Shown in pieces: positions 51,253 to 61,859 of a stretch of DNA of 64,000 nucleotides; position 1 is the first letter of the stretch, and each line of letters begins with the position of its first letter. Source of the stretch: Halobacteriovorax sp. JY17 (GTDB taxonomy: Bacteria > Bdellovibrionota > Bacteriovoracia > Bacteriovoracales > Bacteriovoracaceae); NCBI RefSeq assembly GCF_002753895.1, contig NZ_NJER01000001.1, positions 248,001-312,000 of the forward strand, written 5' to 3'. Below the pieces are notes generated by a model. The model did not search any database, was not told where the DNA came from, and saw nothing but the letters and a program-made list of their open reading frames with translations. A program made the position numbers and the translations under genes.

Positions 51253-51861
51253 GTGATTAAGTTAAAAAAGGCTATAGCTCTTCTTCTCATTCTCCTATTA
51301 AATTCTTCGTGCTCGATATTTAATGCTGGAACAGCTCATTTGAAATATTCTGATATTGATGCAGGTCTTGAGGGCAATAAGTATGAACTGAAAGAAAAGC
51401 TAGGAAGTATATCTGCTTCTATTAGGCAATTAGAACATCCTAAGGGTTATAGGAGCTGGGACTATATTGTTAAACTCTCTCCTAGTATTCATTTGGACCG
51501 CTTTGAGTTCCAAGCAGGAGTGGCGGCAACTAGCCCGACAACAACGACTAATGTGTATGATCTAAAATATAGACGTCTTTCTGGGCTTGGAAACTTAAAG
51601 ATTGAGTTCTTTACCCCTGGGGGACAGCTCGTTTTTACCGCAGGTTTTGGGGGAGCGATCTATAGGCTTGATGATGGGCATGGGCTAAAGACGACAAAGA
51701 CTAGAGAAGTTCGAAAATTTGATATCGCTTATAGTGTCTTTCTAACAGATCGAATTTTTCTAATGATGGGGCCAAGATATTATAAAACTGCATTTGAGCA
51801 ATATACTTTTACTTTTAGAGTTGGCTACTTTTGGGGAGATGTCCCTAGGGGGTTAAAATAA
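51253..51861 (+). CDS. Predicted lipoprotein, beta-rich, unknown function
   Basis: A 202-residue protein with GTG start and a signal peptide ending LNSSC-SIF, a lipobox. The mature part has amphipathic strands and ends in FTFRVGYFWGDVP, so it might be a small outer-membrane barrel, though a lipoprotein barrel is unusual. No family is recognised. It is 3 bases downstream of recQ, with the 3' end overlapping the sirtuin gene by 17 bases. Confidence 0.6.
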   Translation: MIKLKKAIALLLILLLNSSCSIFNAGTAHLKYSDIDAGLEGNKYELKEKLGSISASIRQLEHPKGYRSWDYIVKLSPSIHLDRFEFQAGVAATSPTTTTNVYDLKYRRLSGLGNLKIEFFTPGGQLVFTAGFGGAIYRLDDGHGLKTTKTREVRKFDIAYSVFLTDRIFLMMGPRYYKTAFEQYTFTFRVGYFWGDVPRGLK

Positions 51862-52591
51862 TTTTCACGAGTCTTGGCACTTGAATACTTGATTCTCCCG
51901 TTAATTGAGAATCAAAGGATCTAGAAAGATTTGTTGAAGTAAGGTTTTGCTCAATAGTCATAGCACCACTTTCCTTGGCCGCGGCTACAAACGTTGCTGC
52001 AGGATAGACTTCTCCCGACGTTCCTATTGATATAAATAAGTCACACTCTTCTAGAAGTTCACTAATCTCATCTAAGCGGTAAGGTATCTCACCAAACCAA
52101 ACGATATGAGGTCTTAAATTTCCTGACTGCTTACAGCAAGAGCAAATTGTACTTTCATTTAGAACTCCCTCTATACTGTAGACTTTGAGAGTTTTAATAC
52201 AATGCATTTTTAAAAGCTCTCCGTGCATATGAATAATATTCTGAGAGCCAGCTCTCTCATGTAGATCGTCTACATTTTGAGTGATGATTGTGACTTTGCC
52301 TTGAAACTTATTTTCAAGCTCTGCTAGAGCAAGGTGAGCTGGGTTTGGGGAGACTTCTGGAGTTTGTAATTGTGCTCTTCTAGCATTGTAGAAATTGAAG
52401 ACTAATTCGGGATTATTTTTAAAACCATTTATTGAAGCAACATCCATAATATCGTACTCTTCCCAAAAACCATTGTGGTCTCTGAAAGTTTTTATTCCTG
52501 ACTCAGCAGATATTCCTGCTCCAGTTAGAATGACAATATTTTTGATATTATTTGGTATAATCATTTCTATGATATTATCAAATAAATACAT
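51845..52591 (-). CDS. cobB: NAD-dependent sirtuin deacylase, CobB-like
   Basis: A 248-residue SIR2-family enzyme that removes acyl groups from lysines using NAD. Landmarks are LTGAGISAESGIKTFRD, the TQNVDDLHERAG loop, the catalytic His in IHMHGELLK, and LRPHIVWFGE. The Tyr-x-x-Arg motif in FYNARRAQ, shared with E. coli CobB, is linked to desuccinylase activity. The zinc site is incomplete as in CobB (MHC then CSCC). The first Met is 52591; the second, at 52564, is also possible. The gene ends within the convergent lipoprotein gene. Confidence 0.92.
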   Translation of the reverse strand: MYLFDNIIEMIIPNNIKNIVILTGAGISAESGIKTFRDHNGFWEEYDIMDVASINGFKNNPELVFNFYNARRAQLQTPEVSPNPAHLALAELENKFQGKVTIITQNVDDLHERAGSQNIIHMHGELLKMHCIKTLKVYSIEGVLNESTICSCCKQSGNLRPHIVWFGEIPYRLDEISELLEECDLFISIGTSGEVYPAATFVAAAKESGAMTIEQNLTSTNLSRSFDSQLTGESSIQVPRLVKIILTP

Positions 52592-52606: not shown

Positions 52607-52930
52607 ATGAGTGAGATAGAAGAAAATTTAGAATTAAAAGAGAGGAAGAAATTCTTCCTCTATAAGAGAAGTACATTATTTAACTGTATTTTTACAATTT
52701 TCTTATTTATGGCAAATCTCTTAATTGGTCTCCATCTGAGATTATTACTACTTAAGAGTTTCGATTTACTCCTCCTCTTAAGTCTCGTTTTCCTAATCAC
52801 TTTTTTGGAGAAAATGATTCTCAGAAGGTTTCAGTACTCCTTAAATAAAGTAGGAGTATTACTTATTCAATTCTCCATTGTTGTGGAAATGATCTACTTT
52901 ATTTTAAAGATTGAAAGCTTCCTAAATTGA
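52607..52930 (+). CDS. Small membrane protein, unknown function
   Basis: A 107-residue protein with a charged N-terminus (about 20 residues, Glu/Lys-rich) and about three hydrophobic helices rich in Leu, Phe and Ile. No motif or family is recognised. It is divergent from the sirtuin gene by 15 bases, and its 3' end overlaps a small convergent lipoprotein gene by 32 bases. A GAGAG element precedes the ATG. Confidence 0.6.
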   Translation: MSEIEENLELKERKKFFLYKRSTLFNCIFTIFLFMANLLIGLHLRLLLLKSFDLLLLLSLVFLITFLEKMILRRFQYSLNKVGVLLIQFSIVVEMIYFILKIESFLN

Positions 52931-53039
52931 TAGAAGAAATACTCGTTGGACCGAGGTCTTTTATTTTCGCATTCCTTAGCGCTTTATTCGTCGTACATGA
53001 TGCACTCATTACTAGGATAAATAGGCATAAAATCTTCAT
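52899..53039 (-). CDS. Small lipoprotein of 46 residues
   Basis: A short gene with a near-perfect AGGAGG ribosome-binding site 5 bases before its ATG. The product begins MKILCLFILVMSASC and continues TTNKALRNAKIKDLGPTSIS; Cys15 lies in a lipobox-like context (M-S-A-S-C), with Ser at -3 where Leu is common. The mature part of about 30 residues is Ser/Lys-rich. Small lipoproteins like this are easily missed. Nothing else is visible upstream between 53040 and 53160. Its partner or function is unknown. Confidence 0.6.
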   Translation of the reverse strand: MKILCLFILVMSASCTTNKALRNAKIKDLGPTSISSINLGSFQSLK

Positions 53040-53160: not shown

Positions 53161-53196
53161 TATTTGGAAAACTATTTGAGAAAGTATTTGACGAAA
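53161..53196 (+). repeat. Three 12-bp direct repeats (iteron-like)
   Basis: TATTTGGAAAAC, TATTTGAGAAAG and TATTTGACGAAA follow one another with exact 12-base spacing (starts at 53161, 53173 and 53185). The first six bases are invariant. The third copy contains the -35 box of the DnaA-like gene's likely promoter, so a protein bound here would affect that gene. Confidence 0.6.
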
Positions 53197-53215
53197 TATT
53201 ATAAGTGACTAAAAT
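53188..53215 (+). promoter_or_regulatory. Putative sigma70-type promoter of the DnaA-like gene
   Basis: TTGACG (53188-53193) and TAAAAT (53210-53215) with a 16-base spacer, 51 bases before the start codon. The -35 box sits in the third of three direct repeats. Confidence 0.5.
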
Positions 53216-53266: not shown

Positions 53267-54439
53267 ATGGCAAACAGACACAATAGCCCTAGAGCAACAT
53301 TGATTAATAAAGAGCTGGTAAGAAATAAGACTCAAGATGAGAGTCAACTAGACCTTCTTTCTTATATTTCTAATGAGTCGCTCTCAATTTCAGCTCCACA
53401 TAATGTTAGAAGTATTCGCTCGGCCAAGAGTCCAAGGGTAATTTCTCAAAATAGAAAATACTCTCTACCTATAAATGTGGATAGAAGTAAGCTCTTTAAG
53501 AATTTCATTTGTGGAGAGTCTAATAATAGGGCGTTTAAGATTTTAGAGGCCATGACTAAGCAGACATCCTTAGAGTTTCCAATTATCTATATCTGCTCTT
53601 TAAGTGGGCTAGGTAAGAGCCACTTACTCTATGGGGCGGCGAACGCATTATTTGAAAAGACTTCTAAGAAAATTTGCTACTTTCATGGTAAGGAATTTAT
53701 CTACAATTTTGATGGGGAAATGGAGGATATCTCTTCGATTCATACTGTCTTTATAGATGATCTAGATGAAATTACTTATGACCTTGGTTTACAAGATAAA
53801 TTTACACGTAACTTTGATCTCTTAAAGAGAAGTGGTGTACAAATTGTGATGGCGGGATCTGTTCTTCCAAAACATATGAAAATGACCTCTCCTAAGTTTG
53901 CTACAAGAGCGGGTAGTGCTCTCGTTGAAAAAATTAATAAAATTGATAGAGATTTAGCTTCTAAAATTTTAGATAATCTCTCTTATATTCATAAGTATGA
54001 TTTGAGTCCAGATGTAAAAGACCTATTAGTTGATTGCTTTCACTACCATGTTTACGGACTTGAGAGTGCATTATTGAAACTTAAGAGTTATAGCGAAACA
54101 TTTAGCAGTAATGTTGATATTAAGATTGCTTTGAAAGAGCTTAAAATTCTTGGGCCAGTGTTAGATAAGACTATTAATTCTAAGAAAATAATTGCTCGTG
54201 TTTGTGAGTTCTATAAAGTTGATATTGAGGATCTCTTTTCAAAGAATAGAAAGAAAGAAGTCTCTTTTGCTCGTCACGTCTGTATGTATATTTTAAAAGA
54301 CCGAAATGGTCTCTCCCTTTCTAGAATTGCGAGACTCTTTAACCGAGATCACACATCTGTTCTCTATGGTGTTAATAAGATCATGGCAGAGATTCAAGGT
54401 AATAAGAGTATTAGAAAAGACATTCACGAGTTAGTTTAA
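53267..54439 (+). CDS. DnaA-like AAA+ protein with domain IV
   Basis: A 390-residue relative of the replication initiator DnaA. Residues 1-70 are polar and low in order, in place of DnaA's domain I. The AAA+ core has Walker A SLSGLGKSHLL (111-121, first Gly changed to Ser), Walker B FIDDLDE (163-168) and an arginine-finger-like Arg214. The sensor II arginine of DnaA (VRELEGAL) is Tyr263 here (VYGLESAL). The C-terminal domain IV is well kept: KKEVSFARHVCMYIL, LSLSRIARLFNRDHTSVLYG. It thus should bind DnaA-box-like DNA but may handle ATP differently. It is shorter than standard DnaA (about 450 residues). An AAGGA site is 4 bases before the ATG. Confidence 0.85.
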   Translation: MANRHNSPRATLINKELVRNKTQDESQLDLLSYISNESLSISAPHNVRSIRSAKSPRVISQNRKYSLPINVDRSKLFKNFICGESNNRAFKILEAMTKQTSLEFPIIYICSLSGLGKSHLLYGAANALFEKTSKKICYFHGKEFIYNFDGEMEDISSIHTVFIDDLDEITYDLGLQDKFTRNFDLLKRSGVQIVMAGSVLPKHMKMTSPKFATRAGSALVEKINKIDRDLASKILDNLSYIHKYDLSPDVKDLLVDCFHYHVYGLESALLKLKSYSETFSSNVDIKIALKELKILGPVLDKTINSKKIIARVCEFYKVDIEDLFSKNRKKEVSFARHVCMYILKDRNGLSLSRIARLFNRDHTSVLYGVNKIMAEIQGNKSIRKDIHELV

Positions 54440-54473: not shown

Positions 54474-56348
54474 TTAAATTTTAGATTTTTCTGAAAGGAA
54501 GTTAAGAGGTTGCTTAACATCTACAACTCCGCCACCTTTAGGCTTTGGAAATTGAATCATTTGAAGTACTCCTGTCATACAGTTTGTACCTTTGTCAGAG
54601 AATTTTGATCCCTTTGTCTTGATCTTCATTCTCTGTGCTTTACCTTGAGAGTTAATTCTAAAGTGTAGGTCCATAACACCTTTGGCATGCTCGTTTCTAT
54701 ACTCAAGCTCTTGTTGGTAGCAGTGCTTAAATTGTGGAAGGTACTCTCTTAGAATTTTTCTTAAAAGCTCTGGGTCCATTGAACCAAGAACAACAGCTTT
54801 TTGATCAGTATAAGTGGTGTCAATTCCTGACTTATTAGCAAGTCCTTTTGAACCTGATGAGGAATCAAAGCTTCCTTTAAAGTCTTGTCCAAGTCCTGAA
54901 GCGGCATTACTGTTGGCCGCTTTTATATCAGAAGTTGTCGCACTCTTTGCTGAGTTTCCAAGAGCAGCAGCATTGGAATTTGAGTTCTTAACAACCTTTG
55001 CCGAGTTAGAACCTGTGCTTCCAAAGAATGAGGCCATTGATTTATTCATTTTGAATTTGAATGATTTCATCTGTCTTTTGCTTTTAACATTCTTTGACTT
55101 AGCGGCCGCTTTCATTTGCTCTTTCACTGGCTTTGATGCTTGTTTTGTCTTACTTGGTTTTTGTGTGTCTTGCTTCTTCGCAAATTGTGGCTTCTTGTCG
55201 TCTTGCTTTTCTTTCTTTACTCCAGTGTCAACTTCAGTCTTACTAACTTCACTTGAAGTCTTAGAGTTATTCTTTTCTTCTGCTTTTACTGCAGGTCTGT
55301 AGATAACGGCAACTTTCTTCTCTTCTTCTTGCTCCGGAAGATCAATGAATAGAAGAAGTAACATTAAACTCATAGCTACTGAGAAGACTTTTGCTGTTTG
55401 CTTTTTAAATTCTCTATCTCTACCAAAGAAAGGAGTGTTTCTAAGGTGTGGAGGGGCATCAGAAATTTGGATAAGAACCTGTGTGGTTCCATGATCGTAA
55501 GAAATTATTTCATCTTGCTTTAAATGGTAGTTGTTCTCAATGGCCTCTCCAGTTAATAGAGAAGAGCATTTGTGGTCTTTGATTTCCTTAATAAGAATTT
55601 TACTATCTGAAATATCTAGGAAAGGAATATTTTCTTCGCTATCAAAACTTGGAAGTTGGAAGGTATCTTTCTTTCTATCATGGGCCGAAACTCTGAGCTC
55701 CCCACTCTTTAATGGAAAGTAGTCAATTGATAAGGCCGTTCCCATAGAGAGTACTGTAATTTGAACAGCTTTAGCATCATTCTTTCTCGCTATAGGAGTA
55801 AATTCTTTCGTCTCATCGACTTCAATGAAATTGTCTGTGTCGAGATTATCCATGAGGCTGAGTTTTTGAATAGGAGTATAATCCTCTTCATCAAATTTAA
55901 TATCACAATATTCCCCATCAATAATAACAAGGCCAGGAACTGGAGGTAAAACCGGGGTAGGGTGTTGTCCCTCCAATTCCTGGATTGTTTGAATATCCAT
56001 ATCCTCATCTTCAATGATCGCATCATTCCGTTGAATTTCATCAATGATTTCATCTAAATTAAATATTTCATTAGAAAATTGAATATGGTCACCTGGATAG
56101 GCAACACCACTTTCAACTCTCTCTGAATTGATAAATGTTCCATTATTACTTTCAAGATCAATTATTTTTGCTCCACCTTCAAGGTTGAGAATTAAGATAG
56201 CGTGGTATGCAGAGATACTACTATCTTCAATGATGATGTCACATTTCTCACTTGAACCAACAAGAAGCTTCTTCTTGGTTAAAGTGAACTCAAGATTGTG
56301 ACCGATTAACTTTAGTCGACTGTAGTCTTTAGTTTTTGACAGCAACAC
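54474..56348 (-). CDS. FHA-domain protein with TM helix and AgmX/PglI-type C-terminus (GltG/GltJ-like)
   Basis: A 624-residue protein that spans the inner membrane. The N-terminal FHA domain (about 15-100) binds phosphothreonine in known relatives: Gly31-Ser, SSISAYHA and LESNNGTFIN are visible. A second cytoplasmic beta-rich domain (about 190-310) leads to one membrane helix (320-337). A long Lys/Ala/Ser/Asn-rich periplasmic linker (345-500) leads to a C-terminal domain (about 515-624: LRKILREYLPQFKHCYQQELEY, GVMDLHFRINSQG, a Cys pair). That domain looks like the AgmX/PglI/TonB-like end of Myxococcus GltG and GltJ. It is the last gene of a Glt-like operon, overlapping the TPR lipoprotein gene by 20 bases. 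Confidence 0.85.
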   Translation of the reverse strand: MLLSKTKDYSRLKLIGHNLEFTLTKKKLLVGSSEKCDIIIEDSSISAYHAILILNLEGGAKIIDLESNNGTFINSERVESGVAYPGDHIQFSNEIFNLDEIIDEIQRNDAIIEDEDMDIQTIQELEGQHPTPVLPPVPGLVIIDGEYCDIKFDEEDYTPIQKLSLMDNLDTDNFIEVDETKEFTPIARKNDAKAVQITVLSMGTALSIDYFPLKSGELRVSAHDRKKDTFQLPSFDSEENIPFLDISDSKILIKEIKDHKCSSLLTGEAIENNYHLKQDEIISYDHGTTQVLIQISDAPPHLRNTPFFGRDREFKKQTAKVFSVAMSLMLLLLFIDLPEQEEEKKVAVIYRPAVKAEEKNNSKTSSEVSKTEVDTGVKKEKQDDKKPQFAKKQDTQKPSKTKQASKPVKEQMKAAAKSKNVKSKRQMKSFKFKMNKSMASFFGSTGSNSAKVVKNSNSNAAALGNSAKSATTSDIKAANSNAASGLGQDFKGSFDSSSGSKGLANKSGIDTTYTDQKAVVLGSMDPELLRKILREYLPQFKHCYQQELEYRNEHAKGVMDLHFRINSQGKAQRMKIKTKGSKFSDKGTNCMTGVLQMIQFPKPKGGGVVDVKQPLNFLSEKSKI

Positions 56349-57213
56349 GTTTTACCCCTTTTTTGACATTTGCATCCTTGCTGTCCTTCTCTTCCTTAAT
56401 TCTTTCTAACTCAATATTTATTTTATTTGAAAGTGCATTTGTAGCAGATTTAATTTCTTCAATAATAGTGGCCCTTTGTCCACCAATGATCGCTTTCGCC
56501 TCTTCGTACCTTTTTAGCTCATAGTAGAGTAGAGCAACGTAGAGAGAAATATCTTCTCTCTTTAAGTTCTCATCGTTAAATCTCTTTGCCCACGAGTAAG
56601 CTTTAGTGAAATTTCCCTCTGCAATTTCAATTGTCATCATTGAAAGGATGAGGTCTATATCGTTTGGGTTACTTGTTACAAGAGGGTGAATAAGAGTTCT
56701 TGCTTTTTCAAGATGATTAAATTTTATATAGACTTGGGCCAAGTTGTATTTTGGCACTTTAGAGTTTGGAGAGAGTTTAATCGACTTCTCTAAGAGTGTG
56801 TGAGCATCTTCAAAGTTACTCGATTTAAGAGCAACAAGAGCTTTGTTATTATAAATAGAAGCTTGTATTAAGTTCTCTCCCGAAAGAGCATAGTCGTAGA
56901 AGTAATTTGCTTTTAACTGGTTGCCATAGAGCTGGTAACAAATACCAATGAAGAGCCAATACTTCTTATCCTCTCTATACTTATTAATATTACTCTGCAG
57001 GTCTTGTAGAGAGCTTTTGAAATCTCCATTATAACACTTTGAAAGAGACTTATTTAAGAAGTTCTCTTCACTTATTTTACTTAAGCGAGTATTACCAAAC
57101 CTCATAAAAGATTCTTCAGAGAAAGCATCATTCTTAGATTGAAGATGGCTATTAATCTTGTGTGAACCACAACTAACAGCTAAGAATATCGTAAGTAGAA
57201 TCGCCACTTTCAT
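56329..57213 (-). CDS. TPR-repeat lipoprotein (GltE/AglT-like)
   Basis: A 294-residue lipoprotein with a signal peptide ending LAVSC15-GS. Tetratricopeptide repeats fill about 55-240 (for example KYWLFIGICYQLYGNQLKANYFYDYAL, ASIYNNKALVALKSSNFEDAHTLLEKSI). The C-terminal tail is charged and basic. TPR lipoproteins of this kind link inner- and outer-membrane parts of the Agl/Glt motility machine in Myxococcus. It overlaps the neighbours on both sides, so it is in one operon. Confidence 0.8.
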   Translation of the reverse strand: MKVAILLTIFLAVSCGSHKINSHLQSKNDAFSEESFMRFGNTRLSKISEENFLNKSLSKCYNGDFKSSLQDLQSNINKYREDKKYWLFIGICYQLYGNQLKANYFYDYALSGENLIQASIYNNKALVALKSSNFEDAHTLLEKSIKLSPNSKVPKYNLAQVYIKFNHLEKARTLIHPLVTSNPNDIDLILSMMTIEIAEGNFTKAYSWAKRFNDENLKREDISLYVALLYYELKRYEEAKAIIGGQRATIIEEIKSATNALSNKINIELERIKEEKDSKDANVKKGVKRVAVKN

Positions 57214-60074
57214 TATTTAATCCCTTGATTATCTAGAGATATTACTAATTGTGATGCAGGGTATCTCATTAGTATTTCTGATTTAAAGTCTTGATCGTCA
57301 AATAATCTATAGTTTTCATAGGAGAGAATGTTATTTCCTGAAATAGTCTTAGTGGTTTGTTTATTAAATGAATTCACTTCATTTTCTACTTTCGAATAAA
57401 GTGGAGTCATTTGCTTTAAAAACATTGCTGTTTCTTCTTTATTAAATCCATTGGGACGGAAGGCCTTAACTTCTTTTAAGAAGTCTTTATATTGATTAGC
57501 TATAAAGTGACTAACCTTTGGTGTGATAATTGGATGTTTTAGCTTCTGAATTTCTAGACCAGAATTTACAATTTGCTTTATTTTAGAGAAATTATTTTCA
57601 ATTTCCTTACTAAATAGATCTCCATTGAAAGTTCCCCCTGAAAAAGAGTACTTAGAATTTCTAAATTTTAGTAGGTAGGCGTTATAGGCCATTATTTTAT
57701 AGATGGCTGGAGATTGATAGAGTTTCAATATATCTAGCATCTTCTTCGCCTGTGCCTCTTGATTTTTAGCATTTGCCTGCCAGTAATGATTTTCAGCAAT
57801 AGTCGTAATCAGCGAGCTTTGAATGAAGCGAGGAAATTTTCTCATGTAGAACGTTAGCTTCTTAATATTTCCCTCAATGGCAAATTCTCTTGAAAATCTT
57901 TCAATATCCTTTGCAATAATATTTTCATCAATACCACATTTTCTTTGTGTGTTTTGTAATGTATCAATGGCCTTATAATTATTCTCTACGATGGCAAATG
58001 TAATAGCTTTCTTATATAGACTATTTTTTAATGGGAAATTATTACTACAGTATTTTGCAATTGCTCTATAGCTAAGAGATAGGGCTTTTTTAAATTCTTG
58101 AGCTTGTGCATATTCAGTGATTATTTTGTCTATTGTTGTGATCTCTTTGAAAATTTCACCTTGATTATCAATCTTTAAGCTGTACTTTAGCCACTTCCAC
58201 GATTGATTAATATTAGTGATTTTTAGGCTTAATAGTGAAAGTCTAAAAGCTGTCTGTATTTTAATTTTAAGTGGGTAACTCTCATTTTCTAAAATACTTA
58301 AGTAGCTCTTCTCTGCAGAGGCGTAATCTTTAGCATCAACCTTCTTATCTATCTCGTTAAAGAGAAGTCCAGCAAGGATAACTACAGACTTCTTAATATA
58401 AACTTTTTCAAAAGATAAAAAACCTTTGTTAAACTCCCCAATCCAATAAGAAATCTTTTGAATATCTTTCTTTGATACATAGTAATCAAATACTTTTGCA
58501 AACATTCCTTTTTGAGACTTTAAGTCTGCAGGGAAGTTTTGATTATAGGCCTTTACTACATTTACTGAATTTAGTATTTTTAAATTCTTAAAGTAGAGTG
58601 TAAATAGCTTTGGATAAATAAGTTGACTCTTTTGGTCTTTAGGCCAAAGACTTACATGATTACTATAGACATAAGTCTTATACTTATAATTAGATAATCC
58701 TTCTTCTTCTAGCTTTGTAAGAGTAGCAAGTAGTGAATTAATCACTTTCTTAGAGAAAACTTCGTTCCATACTTTCTTTTGTTTTTCTTTCTTGATAATT
58801 TCTAGAACTAAAGAGTACTTCTTATAAGCTCTTTGAAATAATTTAACAGAATAAAGAGTTTCACCTTGAAAAAAGAGATACTCATTCTTATTTTCTCTAT
58901 CGATATTAATAAGGATATTGAAGTAAGTTAGAACATTATTTAATTTTTCGTCATTCAATGAAGCACTTGTAAATTGGTCTCTTTTCGCTAGTTTTACTTG
59001 AAGAAAACCAACATATGACTTAATTGATTTAACAGATATTTCTAATTCTTCTCCAGTTAAATGCTTTAAGTTAAAAATATTAGAAAGGGCCTTAGAGGCT
59101 TCTAAGTGTAGTGACTCTTGTTTGTAAGTTCTATAAAACTCCAATTGATAGTTATAGTAGAGTACTTGCTCGTCAAACTGCTTTCTCTCTTTTGCTGCAT
59201 TTAATCCTCTAACAACAATATTATTCACTTCTGGAAATTTCTTTGCTGTCTGCGCTCTTGTGGCCATCTTTGTAATATATTCACCAGGTTTAACTACATT
59301 CTCTAAGTAGAACGTAACACCTTCGTCAATTTTATCATTTTGAATATAGAATATACTGATTGCATCGAGTACTTGAGATTCGACAGTAACGTATCTTGGA
59401 CTCTTACTAATCTGATAAGCTTTTAGAATATGATCTAGTCCCATTGCTAGTTTCTTAACTTTTAAAAGACACCATGCAAAGTTGTAATGGTGCTTTGCAT
59501 ACCATTCATCACCTTCATTTTTGATGACATCAACATAGTACTTGATCGCTTTTCTATATTTCTTATCATTATAGTAGAGCTCTGCAAGGGCAGTTTTTAT
59601 ACTGTGGACAATAGGTGAGGCATGAGGAGCGACTCTCAATGACTTTAAAAGATAGTACTCAGTTTTCTTACTCTTGTTAAAATCTCTCTCATTGAGAGCA
59701 AGTGTGTAGAAAATAGCTCCATTACTTCTATAGTTTGGCCATTTCTTAGTAATATAGAGTCCTAGTTTTTCTACTTTCTTATTAAGTGAAACTGATTGCT
59801 TAAAGAAGTAGGATTTCTTTAATTTTGGATTCTTATTTTTTAAGAAGTTGTTATTCTCTTCTTCTTTGATAATTTTTAAATTTTCTGAATAGAGCTCTAG
59901 CAGTCTATACTCTAGATTTGGTCCTCTTCTACCAATTTTCTTAATTGTCTTAATTTCTCCGTGAATCATATTAATAAGCTTATTTCTCTTTTGTTTTTCA
60001 AAAGAGGCCTTCTGCTCTCCATAAGCAGGAAAGCAAAGAGTGATAATGAATGTGATCACTAGAAGATACTTCAT
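57213..60074 (-). CDS. Large exported TPR-repeat protein
   Basis: A 953-residue protein with a signal peptide (residues 1-19, ending AYG). The rest is helical with many TPR-like repeats (for example LYYNDKKYRKAIKYYVDVIK, EWYAKHHYNFAWCLLKVKKLAMGLDHILKAY). It is Lys-rich and has no other known domain. Its size and place resemble the large periplasmic TPR proteins of the Glt machine (GltD or GltI type), but I cannot decide which. It begins 3 bases after the second TolR-like gene. Confidence 0.75.
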   Translation of the reverse strand: MKYLLVITFIITLCFPAYGEQKASFEKQKRNKLINMIHGEIKTIKKIGRRGPNLEYRLLELYSENLKIIKEEENNNFLKNKNPKLKKSYFFKQSVSLNKKVEKLGLYITKKWPNYRSNGAIFYTLALNERDFNKSKKTEYYLLKSLRVAPHASPIVHSIKTALAELYYNDKKYRKAIKYYVDVIKNEGDEWYAKHHYNFAWCLLKVKKLAMGLDHILKAYQISKSPRYVTVESQVLDAISIFYIQNDKIDEGVTFYLENVVKPGEYITKMATRAQTAKKFPEVNNIVVRGLNAAKERKQFDEQVLYYNYQLEFYRTYKQESLHLEASKALSNIFNLKHLTGEELEISVKSIKSYVGFLQVKLAKRDQFTSASLNDEKLNNVLTYFNILINIDRENKNEYLFFQGETLYSVKLFQRAYKKYSLVLEIIKKEKQKKVWNEVFSKKVINSLLATLTKLEEEGLSNYKYKTYVYSNHVSLWPKDQKSQLIYPKLFTLYFKNLKILNSVNVVKAYNQNFPADLKSQKGMFAKVFDYYVSKKDIQKISYWIGEFNKGFLSFEKVYIKKSVVILAGLLFNEIDKKVDAKDYASAEKSYLSILENESYPLKIKIQTAFRLSLLSLKITNINQSWKWLKYSLKIDNQGEIFKEITTIDKIITEYAQAQEFKKALSLSYRAIAKYCSNNFPLKNSLYKKAITFAIVENNYKAIDTLQNTQRKCGIDENIIAKDIERFSREFAIEGNIKKLTFYMRKFPRFIQSSLITTIAENHYWQANAKNQEAQAKKMLDILKLYQSPAIYKIMAYNAYLLKFRNSKYSFSGGTFNGDLFSKEIENNFSKIKQIVNSGLEIQKLKHPIITPKVSHFIANQYKDFLKEVKAFRPNGFNKEETAMFLKQMTPLYSKVENEVNSFNKQTTKTISGNNILSYENYRLFDDQDFKSEILMRYPASQLVISLDNQGIK

Positions 60075-60077
60075 ATC

Positions 60078-60605
60078 TTAATTTCCACCCTTTACAATAA
60101 ATTTAAACTTTGGAAATCCTGCTGTTGCACTTGCATGCATAACTTTTTGCATATCTGCATATGAGAGAGTTTGATCTAGGACAATATTTATCTGCTTATT
60201 TGACTTTTCCTTACTCTTTATTAGGTCTTGCTCAACCGAAGAGAGGTTTCTAGACTTAAATTCTTTTAACTCTTTATCTCCCTGATCTTTTAATTCTTTT
60301 AACTTCTTCTCTAAGAAAGAAATATTTGAGCTAGATTTTGATATTTTACCGATTTCTTTATTATTGATGAAAACGGCCCTGTTCTTATTGACTTGAATTG
60401 TCACAGATTGATTACCATGAAGAGTGGAAATTGAATCTGGAAGCTCTAGGTTCTTTGTTAAATCAAGCTTAAGATCTGACGGGTTATAGCTCTTAAGTAA
60501 GAAAACGAGAAGAATAACTAAGATATCAAGTAGAGAAGTGATATCTATATCTAACTCTTTCTTCTTCTTTAAAATTACAGATCTTCTTTTCTTCTTTGTA
60601 GTCAT
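60078..60605 (-). CDS. ExbD/TolR-family protein, second copy
   Basis: A 175-residue protein with a basic N-terminus (TTKKKRRSVILKKKK) and one helix (about 21-37) that carries Asp27 (DITSLLDILVILLVFLL). That aspartate is the proton-carrying residue of ExbD, TolR and MotB. The periplasmic part includes VTIQVNKNRAVFINNKEIG and a final SYADMQKVMHASATAGFPKFKFIV, as in ExbD. It follows the first TolR-like gene by 9 bases. Two TolR-like proteins per TolQ is the AglQ/AglS arrangement. Confidence 0.88.
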   Translation of the reverse strand: MTTKKKRRSVILKKKKELDIDITSLLDILVILLVFLLKSYNPSDLKLDLTKNLELPDSISTLHGNQSVTIQVNKNRAVFINNKEIGKISKSSSNISFLEKKLKELKDQGDKELKEFKSRNLSSVEQDLIKSKEKSNKQINIVLDQTLSYADMQKVMHASATAGFPKFKFIVKGGN

Positions 60606-60614
60606 TGCTAATTC

Positions 60615-61127
60615 CTAGATTACAGTTTCAAAAATGATTTGATCGAATAAAGTCTTCGTTCTTACAATTTTTCCTTTCTTTGATTTCGCCGAAAGCTCTG
60701 GAACTTCTTTTCCAACACCTGTTACTGAATCCATGATTTTTACAATTTCTTTGTAATTTACGTTCTTATTTGGACTTATGATAATTGATCTCTCATCAAT
60801 ATTTGCTAACTTAATATTGATGAGTATTTTCTTTAGTTTTCCAAGATCAAAATCTTCACCAAGCTTTGTAATTGTTGATTGAACCGAGCCTTCAACACCT
60901 GTTTTTACTTCAATAGTTGAACTAGTAATTTTAAGTGTTAAATTGAGGGGCTTTTCATCACTCTTTTCTGTGTCAATTGTTGCAATGGCAGGAGCGTCAC
61001 TTCCTATTTCATAGATCTCAACAAATTGAGCACTCATTAGTAAAAAGAAGATAAATATGAATACCGCATCCAAGATTGGAATAAGGTTTAGTTTTGGTAT
61101 TTCTTTCTTTTCTTTTCTTGTTCTCAT
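60615..61127 (-). CDS. ExbD/TolR-family protein, first copy
   Basis: A 170-residue protein with a basic N-terminus and one helix carrying Asp20 (LNLIPILDAVFIFIFFLLM), the proton-relay residue. The periplasmic part includes INIKLANIDERSIIISPNKNVNYKEIVKIMD, the ExbD pattern. It lies 20 bases after the TolQ-like gene. It probably forms a heteromeric plug with the second copy in the channel. Confidence 0.88.
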   Translation of the reverse strand: MRTRKEKKEIPKLNLIPILDAVFIFIFFLLMSAQFVEIYEIGSDAPAIATIDTEKSDEKPLNLTLKITSSTIEVKTGVEGSVQSTITKLGEDFDLGKLKKILINIKLANIDERSIIISPNKNVNYKEIVKIMDSVTGVGKEVPELSAKSKKGKIVRTKTLFDQIIFETVI

Positions 61128-61147
61128 TTCTACCCCTAGAAAATCAA

Positions 61148-61849
61148 TTAAGCTGCTTCAGATGTACTCTTTGGTACTGGTGGCATTTTTCTCTTCTTTG
61201 TCCCCAGTAAATCAACTAATTTAAGAGAGTACTCTTCAATTTCAGCGATGATCTTCTCACTCTTATTAGAGAGAATATTGTGAATAACCATAATACTAAT
61301 CGCAGAGATTAATCCAAAGGCGGTGGTATTCATGGCCTTAGAAATACCAAGTGCGAGGAGTTTCGCTTTTGATGATGGGTCGGCATTGGCAACAGCAGCA
61401 AATGACTCAATCAAACCGTAGATAGTTCCTAGAAGTCCTATTAGTGTTGATACGTTTGCAACAAGACCAAGGTAGCTCATTCTCTTATCAACTTTAGGTG
61501 TAACTTCCAAAATTGTAGAGTCAACAGCATCTTGTATTTGATCCTTATCTTGATTTGCTCTCTTTAATCCTGACTTTAAAACCATTGGTAATATCGCTTT
61601 TGAGTTTGAGCAACTCTGGATAGCTTTTTCCACATCGTTATTTAAAACGTGCTTCTTAATCATATTCATAAGAGAGTTGCCATCGATGTCATAACTAAAG
61701 AGAGACTTGATTCTCTCTAATGAGATGGCGATTCCAAAAGTCCATGTGGCGAGAATAATCCACATGAAAATCCCACCCTCATCCATAAAGATTGCTAAGG
61801 TTTGTAAGAATGATTGGTCTGTTACGGCCTGAGCCACTTGATTTTCCAT
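61148..61849 (-). CDS. TolQ/ExbB-like proton channel protein (AglR-like)
   Basis: A 233-residue inner-membrane protein with three helices at about 30-45, 133-158 and 170-190, the TolQ/ExbB layout. The signature VANVSTLIGLLGTIYGLIESF and TTAFGLISAISIMVIHNIL lines the channel. It should form a pentamer around two TolR-like subunits and use proton flow to drive movement of envelope parts. Position and partners match AglR of Myxococcus gliding. Confidence 0.92.
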   Translation of the reverse strand: MENQVAQAVTDQSFLQTLAIFMDEGGIFMWIILATWTFGIAISLERIKSLFSYDIDGNSLMNMIKKHVLNNDVEKAIQSCSNSKAILPMVLKSGLKRANQDKDQIQDAVDSTILEVTPKVDKRMSYLGLVANVSTLIGLLGTIYGLIESFAAVANADPSSKAKLLALGISKAMNTTAFGLISAISIMVIHNILSNKSEKIIAEIEEYSLKLVDLLGTKKRKMPPVPKSTSEAA

Positions 61850-61859
61850 TGTCTACCCC

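Follow-up and report, generated by a model that had tools for sequence, protein, structure and literature searches.

A DnaA paralog with a conserved clamp-binding-type motif, a candidate regulator of replication initiation in Halobacteriovorax

The paralog gene and its genomic setting

The window analyzed here, a stretch of 64,000 nucleotides from Halobacteriovorax sp. JY17, carries a gene for a DnaA-like protein of 390 amino acids, at the position where a preliminary description of this DNA had placed it. The gene and its immediate setting comprise the following features.

51845 to 52591, minus strand: Sir2-family gene, a neighbor that marks the ancestral locus (context, from locus comparison)
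53188 to 53215, plus strand: conserved sigma70-type promoter, TTGACG-N16-TAAAAT (kept in the sister species; a TTGACC-N16-TAAACT-like form in other genera)
53267 to 54439, plus strand: DnaA paralog gene (open reading frame of 390 amino acids, Pfam matches, clade in the tree)

The product matches two Pfam families, PF00308 (Bac_DnaA, the AAA+ module) over residues 73 to 217 (1.6e-15) and PF08299 (Bac_DnaA_C, domain IV) over residues 306 to 372 (1.1e-22; 80.3 bits versus 31.5). Its scores against the curated models for DnaA (TIGR00362, 207.5 bits) and for Hda (TIGR03420, 73.6 bits) lie below the respective cutoffs of 343.9 and 194.8, and by these models the protein is neither DnaA nor Hda. Membership in an anti-phage defense family was rejected, as a search with PADLOC gave no match. 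An origin from a phage or plasmid was likewise rejected: the best matches listed from phage and plasmid collections were all DnaA-like proteins with at most 26% identity. A scan of genome contigs with this single paralog protein had one match, a DnaA-like locus from Bacilli at 22% identity.

The preliminary description had proposed looking for a standard dnaA elsewhere in the genome and had named a sole dnaA as a finding that would speak against its reading. A standard dnaA is present on a contig other than that of the paralog (526 amino acids; G000:C2:1-1581), so the paralog is not the only dnaA of the genome. The standard gene is followed by dnaN, confirmed by Pfam, and then by genes that we read as recF, gyrB, and gyrA. 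In a relative from the same genus (G001), the record opens with dnaA, and the paralog is found at 1.34 Mb. The 706-bp intergenic region between dnaA and dnaN (L072:1582-2287, on contig C2 of G000) contains about nine 9-mers that resemble the DnaA box (TTATCCACA) with at most one mismatch, and this region is likely oriC. No exact DnaA box was found in the promoter of the paralog or near the gene, and the whole window contains only three.

Repeats upstream of the gene (53161 to 53196) had been put forward in the preliminary description as sites of interest. They are not retained in the sister species and they overlap the conserved promoter, and we therefore discarded the idea that they are DnaA-like iterons. 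The minus strand upstream of the paralog also holds a small unlisted open reading frame (window positions 52899 to 53039) of about 46 amino acids, with a ribosome-binding site and a lipoprotein-type signal (MKILCLFILVMSASC); its start region appears to be kept in the sister species. On the other side of the paralog, the minus strand carries a conserved run of genes (window positions 54474 to 61852) for an FHA-domain protein, two TPR-like proteins, and a MotA/TolQ/ExbB protein, a run that we take to resemble gliding-motility (Agl/Glt) clusters.

The AAA+ module and domain IV

The central and C-terminal parts of the protein contain the features listed here, with the corresponding residue numbers of Escherichia coli DnaA, which were assigned from motifs, in brackets.

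53597 to 53620, plus strand: Walker A motif SLSGLGKS, amino acids 111 to 118, with Lys117 (178) kept (alignment)
53687 to 53737, plus strand: shortened initiator-specific insert between Walker A and Walker B (alignment and structure model)
53744 to 53761, plus strand: Walker B motif, with Asp164-Asp165 (235-236) kept (alignment)
53858 to 53860, plus strand: sensor I position, Ser198 instead of Asp (269) (alignment)
53906 to 53908, plus strand: arginine-finger position, Arg214 (285) (alignment)
54053 to 54055, plus strand: sensor II position, Tyr263 instead of Arg (334) (alignment)
54182 to 54382, plus strand: domain IV, the DnaA-box-binding helix-turn-helix (Pfam, alignment, and structural match)

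Walker A and Walker B are 45 residues apart in the paralog and 56 apart in the standard DnaA, and the structure model places a single helix (residues 141 to 147) ahead of the Walker B strand. Tyrosine at the sensor II position, reported in the preliminary description, was borne out by the alignment. Among the 20 intact paralogs that we identified (see below), 15 have Tyr here, 3 have His, and 2 divergent members have Arg, and the sensor I Asp is retained in 3; for the most divergent proteins (G009, G036, and G102), the alignment of the sensor residues is less sure because the paralog evolves fast. In E. coli DnaA, the sensor II residue Arg334 is required for ATPase activity and is dispensable for the formation of initiation complexes (PMC5742627). 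The arginine-finger position, which had been described as kept in this protein, is Arg in 13 of the 20 paralogs, including all five from Halobacteriovorax, and is Lys in the other 7, all from sister genera. The box VII Arg (281) corresponds to Lys210. The first Walker A residue, Ser111, had been counted among the altered ATPase residues. The residue is indeed a serine; however, serine also occupies this position in the standard DnaA of this genome and in the majority of the family's standard DnaAs, so the argument fails, and Ser111 is excluded as a paralog-specific change. The earlier account did not include the missing sensor I Asp, the shortened insert, or the tail motif QLDLL described in the next section.

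Domain IV is well preserved, in agreement with that account. It has the RDHTSV signature, and the contact residues Arg328 (399), Asp361, His362, and Thr363 (433 to 435) are kept; the domain is retained in all full-length paralogs. From these residues we predict, with good confidence, that the paralog binds DnaA boxes. Comparison of the structure model with known structures identified DnaA as the nearest fold (8btg, Z = 25.7, RMSD = 6.6 over 316 residues; 2z4r, Z = 25.0), with Hda next (5x06, Z = 19.1, RMSD = 4.9 over 218 residues), and domain IV matched the box-bound domain IV of DnaA closely (1j1v, Z = 16.1, RMSD = 1.3 over 88 residues). Elsewhere, the C terminus of a transposase-like protein (L119, G048:C206; IS200/REP type by eye) gave a match to the DnaA domain IV model.

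A pentapeptide in the N-terminal tail and the spread of the paralog

The remaining feature lies in the N-terminal part of the protein.

53345 to 53359, plus strand: QLDLL, a beta-clamp-binding-type motif, amino acids 27 to 31, in a disordered N-terminal tail (alignment of 20 paralogs)

No domain I can be aligned in the paralog, and approximately 66 residues form an N-terminal tail, of which residues 1 to 61 have a pLDDT under 50 in the structure model, indicating disorder. The preliminary description had domain I replaced by a polar tail; domain I is indeed absent, but the tail is not mere filler, as it contains an invariant clamp-type motif. Q27 and L31 are present in all 20 paralogs, L28 and L30 in 19, and residue 29 is D in 15, whereas no column outside the motif up to residue 70, the start Met excepted, is conserved in more than 13 of the 20. 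Q[LM]x[LF][LFI] is matched by 20/20 intact paralogs versus 0/28 standard DnaAs, and when the tail of each paralog was shuffled, this pattern arose in approximately 0 to 1.3% of shuffles. The motif is near-invariant across paralogs that share 24 to 81% identity, and its codons differ between species through synonymous variation that leaves the residues constant. The DinB protein encoded by the same genome ends in RQLKLI; in other bacteria, DinB carries a clamp site at its C terminus. Bacterial clamp-binding motifs have the consensus QL(S/D)LF (PMC9690074); QLDLL matches it, with L at the end where the commonest form has F. Hda of E. coli (QLSLPL) and HdaA of Caulobacter (QFKLPL) carry such motifs at the N terminus, bind the clamp through them, and need them for function (PMC3836487). 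From this agreement with the consensus we predict, again with good confidence, that the paralog binds the clamp.

Orthologs of the paralog are present in 5/5 Halobacteriovorax genomes at 60 to 81% identity. Intact paralogs were found in 20 of the 129 family genomes searched, spread over 7 genera. G109 has a 21st copy (L113, G109:C119), in which a stop breaks the reading frame and the motif is still present as QLALF. Another interrupted extra DnaA-like gene was recorded at L112 (G065:C35). The 20 paralogs form a single clade with support of 100/100, whether the full alignment is used or is trimmed to begin at the AAA+ domain. In this tree, which took in no Hda sequences, the family's own standard DnaAs are the sister group of the clade (92/96 with the full alignment and 97/96 with the trimmed one). 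Within the genus, dS was saturated and yielded no clean dN/dS ratio.

The Sir2-family gene adjoins the paralog in four genera (g1, g10, g33, and g8), and a gene for an FHA protein lies on the other side in three of them, adjacent in g1 and g10 and approximately 5 kb away in g33. The syntenic locus of G010 lacks the paralog and has an unrelated 200-amino-acid open reading frame in its place. The paralog is absent from most genera of the family, although in draft genomes absence is weak evidence of loss. The shared locus, together with the G010 locus, is consistent with a single old duplication and later losses, and the absence of the paralog from most genera indicates that it is not essential across the family at large.

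Proposed function and relation to known regulators

The paralog resembles Hda and HdaA, the proteins of the RIDA system, in having a DnaA-derived AAA+ module and a short tail with an N-terminal clamp-type motif, in lacking DnaA domain I, and, in Halobacteriovorax, in keeping the arginine finger. Unlike Hda, it has a DNA-binding domain IV, a Tyr at sensor II, and a pentapeptide (QLDLL) instead of the hexapeptide QLSLPL; it is also sister to the DnaAs of its own family, in the tree without any Hda, and scores below the Hda cutoff. No Hda above the curated cutoff was found in 39 genomes searched, this genome included. With the DnaA initiator, the paralog shares the AAA+ module with its Walker A and B motifs and domain IV with its signature; in contrast to the initiator, it lacks domain I, has lost sensors I and II, has a shorter insert, and coexists with a standard DnaA. 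SeqA, which recognizes hemimethylated GATC, is an unrelated protein, and the likeness lies solely in the proposed effect, a delay of re-initiation at freshly replicated origin DNA; the paralog would find its targets through the clamp and DnaA boxes. SeqA sequesters newly replicated oriC and thereby delays re-initiation (PMC5742627).

A separate DnaA-like protein occurs in four genomes of another Bdellovibrionota family, f7 (L125 to L128, in G056, G151, G042, and G152). Like the paralog, it has a clamp-type hexapeptide before the AAA+ domain (QVSLPL, QLSIQL, QIHMPL, or QLAMSF). Unlike the paralog, it lies on a separate branch of the tree, its motif is preceded by a long N-terminal part, and its domain IV signature is DPS. 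If this second lineage is real, clamp-linked derivatives of DnaA would have arisen repeatedly in the phylum.

We propose, with moderate confidence, that the paralog is a clamp-tethered, DnaA-box-binding regulator, Hda-like or origin-sequestering in action, that restrains re-initiation. QLDLL would dock it on the DnaN sliding clamp, which remains behind the fork on nascent DNA, and there the paralog would act on DnaA and on just-replicated DnaA boxes, such as those of oriC or of DnaA-controlled promoters. It could do so in one mode by occupying the boxes with its domain IV and in another by capping DnaA filaments with its AAA+ module and promoting the turnover of DnaA-ATP, as Hda does. In Halobacteriovorax, the paralog may hydrolyze its own nucleotide slowly and still offer its arginine finger to DnaA. 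Since 7 of the 20 paralogs have Lys at the finger, hydrolysis of the Hda type cannot be general; box occupancy would be the more general mode because domain IV, and not the arginine finger, is present in all full-length members. The net effect would be that re-initiation is held back while forks are active. That control is negative could well be the case, by analogy with Hda and given the loss of domain I and the partial loss of the unwinding insert. Most likely, an initiator was converted into a replisome-linked regulator after one old duplication in the family. By its sequence, the paralog has lost domain I, which recruits the helicase, most of the residues that sense ATP, and part of the strand-opening insert, and a nucleotide-binding pocket remains.

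The preliminary description had envisaged a box-binding regulator without the usual ATP switch. Much of this fits our results, namely, the second dnaA, the kept domain IV, the lost sensors, and conservation throughout the genus; the arguments from Ser111 and from the upstream repeats do not stand. With the invariant QLDLL in the tail, the favored model is no longer a free competitor but a regulator tethered to the replisome. The older picture would hold if QLDLL were not a clamp site, leaving an untethered competitor for DnaA boxes or a poison of heterofilaments. The case for the clamp is a sequence pattern throughout, and kept box residues with a broken ATP switch are what an untethered competitor would have. 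However, a five-residue site that is near-invariant amid an unconserved, disordered tail, that fits a known consensus, and that is absent from 28 standard DnaAs makes this improbable. Docking and box reading might instead serve transcription, with the paralog as a replication-coupled transcription factor that reaches promoter DnaA boxes via the clamp and alters the expression of a gene set, not initiation at oriC. Retention of domain IV in all full-length members is compatible with such a role, and in other bacteria DnaA itself works as a transcription factor (PMC8203912); nothing points to target promoters, however, given the scarcity of exact DnaA boxes in the window and their absence near the gene, and we regard this role as unlikely. 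The paralog might also be linked to the clamp in order to assist DNA repair or the restart of replication, with an AAA+ task unrelated to initiation control. Such a role would be in keeping with the many clamp-motif proteins that work in repair (PMC9690074) and with the clamp loaders among AAA+ relatives, which match at the level of the fold only. Yet repair has no need of the DnaA-box-reading residues that the paralog keeps, and the RecQ-like helicase gene at the locus is not an immediate neighbor, lying two genes past the sirtuin, and stays in the G010 locus that lacks the paralog; we therefore consider a repair role very unlikely.

The tethered regulator that we favor may, tentatively, represent a new kind of initiation regulator, in which one protein joins clamp docking, as in Hda, to the reading of DnaA boxes and so combines the roles of Hda and SeqA; its origin would be a DnaA of predatory Bdellovibrionota, alongside the second clamp-motif lineage in f7. 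We found no published description of the paralog under the terms that we tried in open-access literature, and its novelty is provisional. Predators of the Bdellovibrio type keep replication off during hunting and make many chromosome copies inside their prey. A 2023 review describes Bdellovibrio bacteriovorus as being without any identified regulator of replication initiation (PMC11318664). In Halobacteriovorax, a related predator, the paralog offers a concrete candidate for such a regulator, and its five-residue motif can be targeted by mutation. If the proposal is true, coupling of DnaA control to the clamp can arise from DnaA itself in a lineage other than Hda, with the DNA-binding domain retained.
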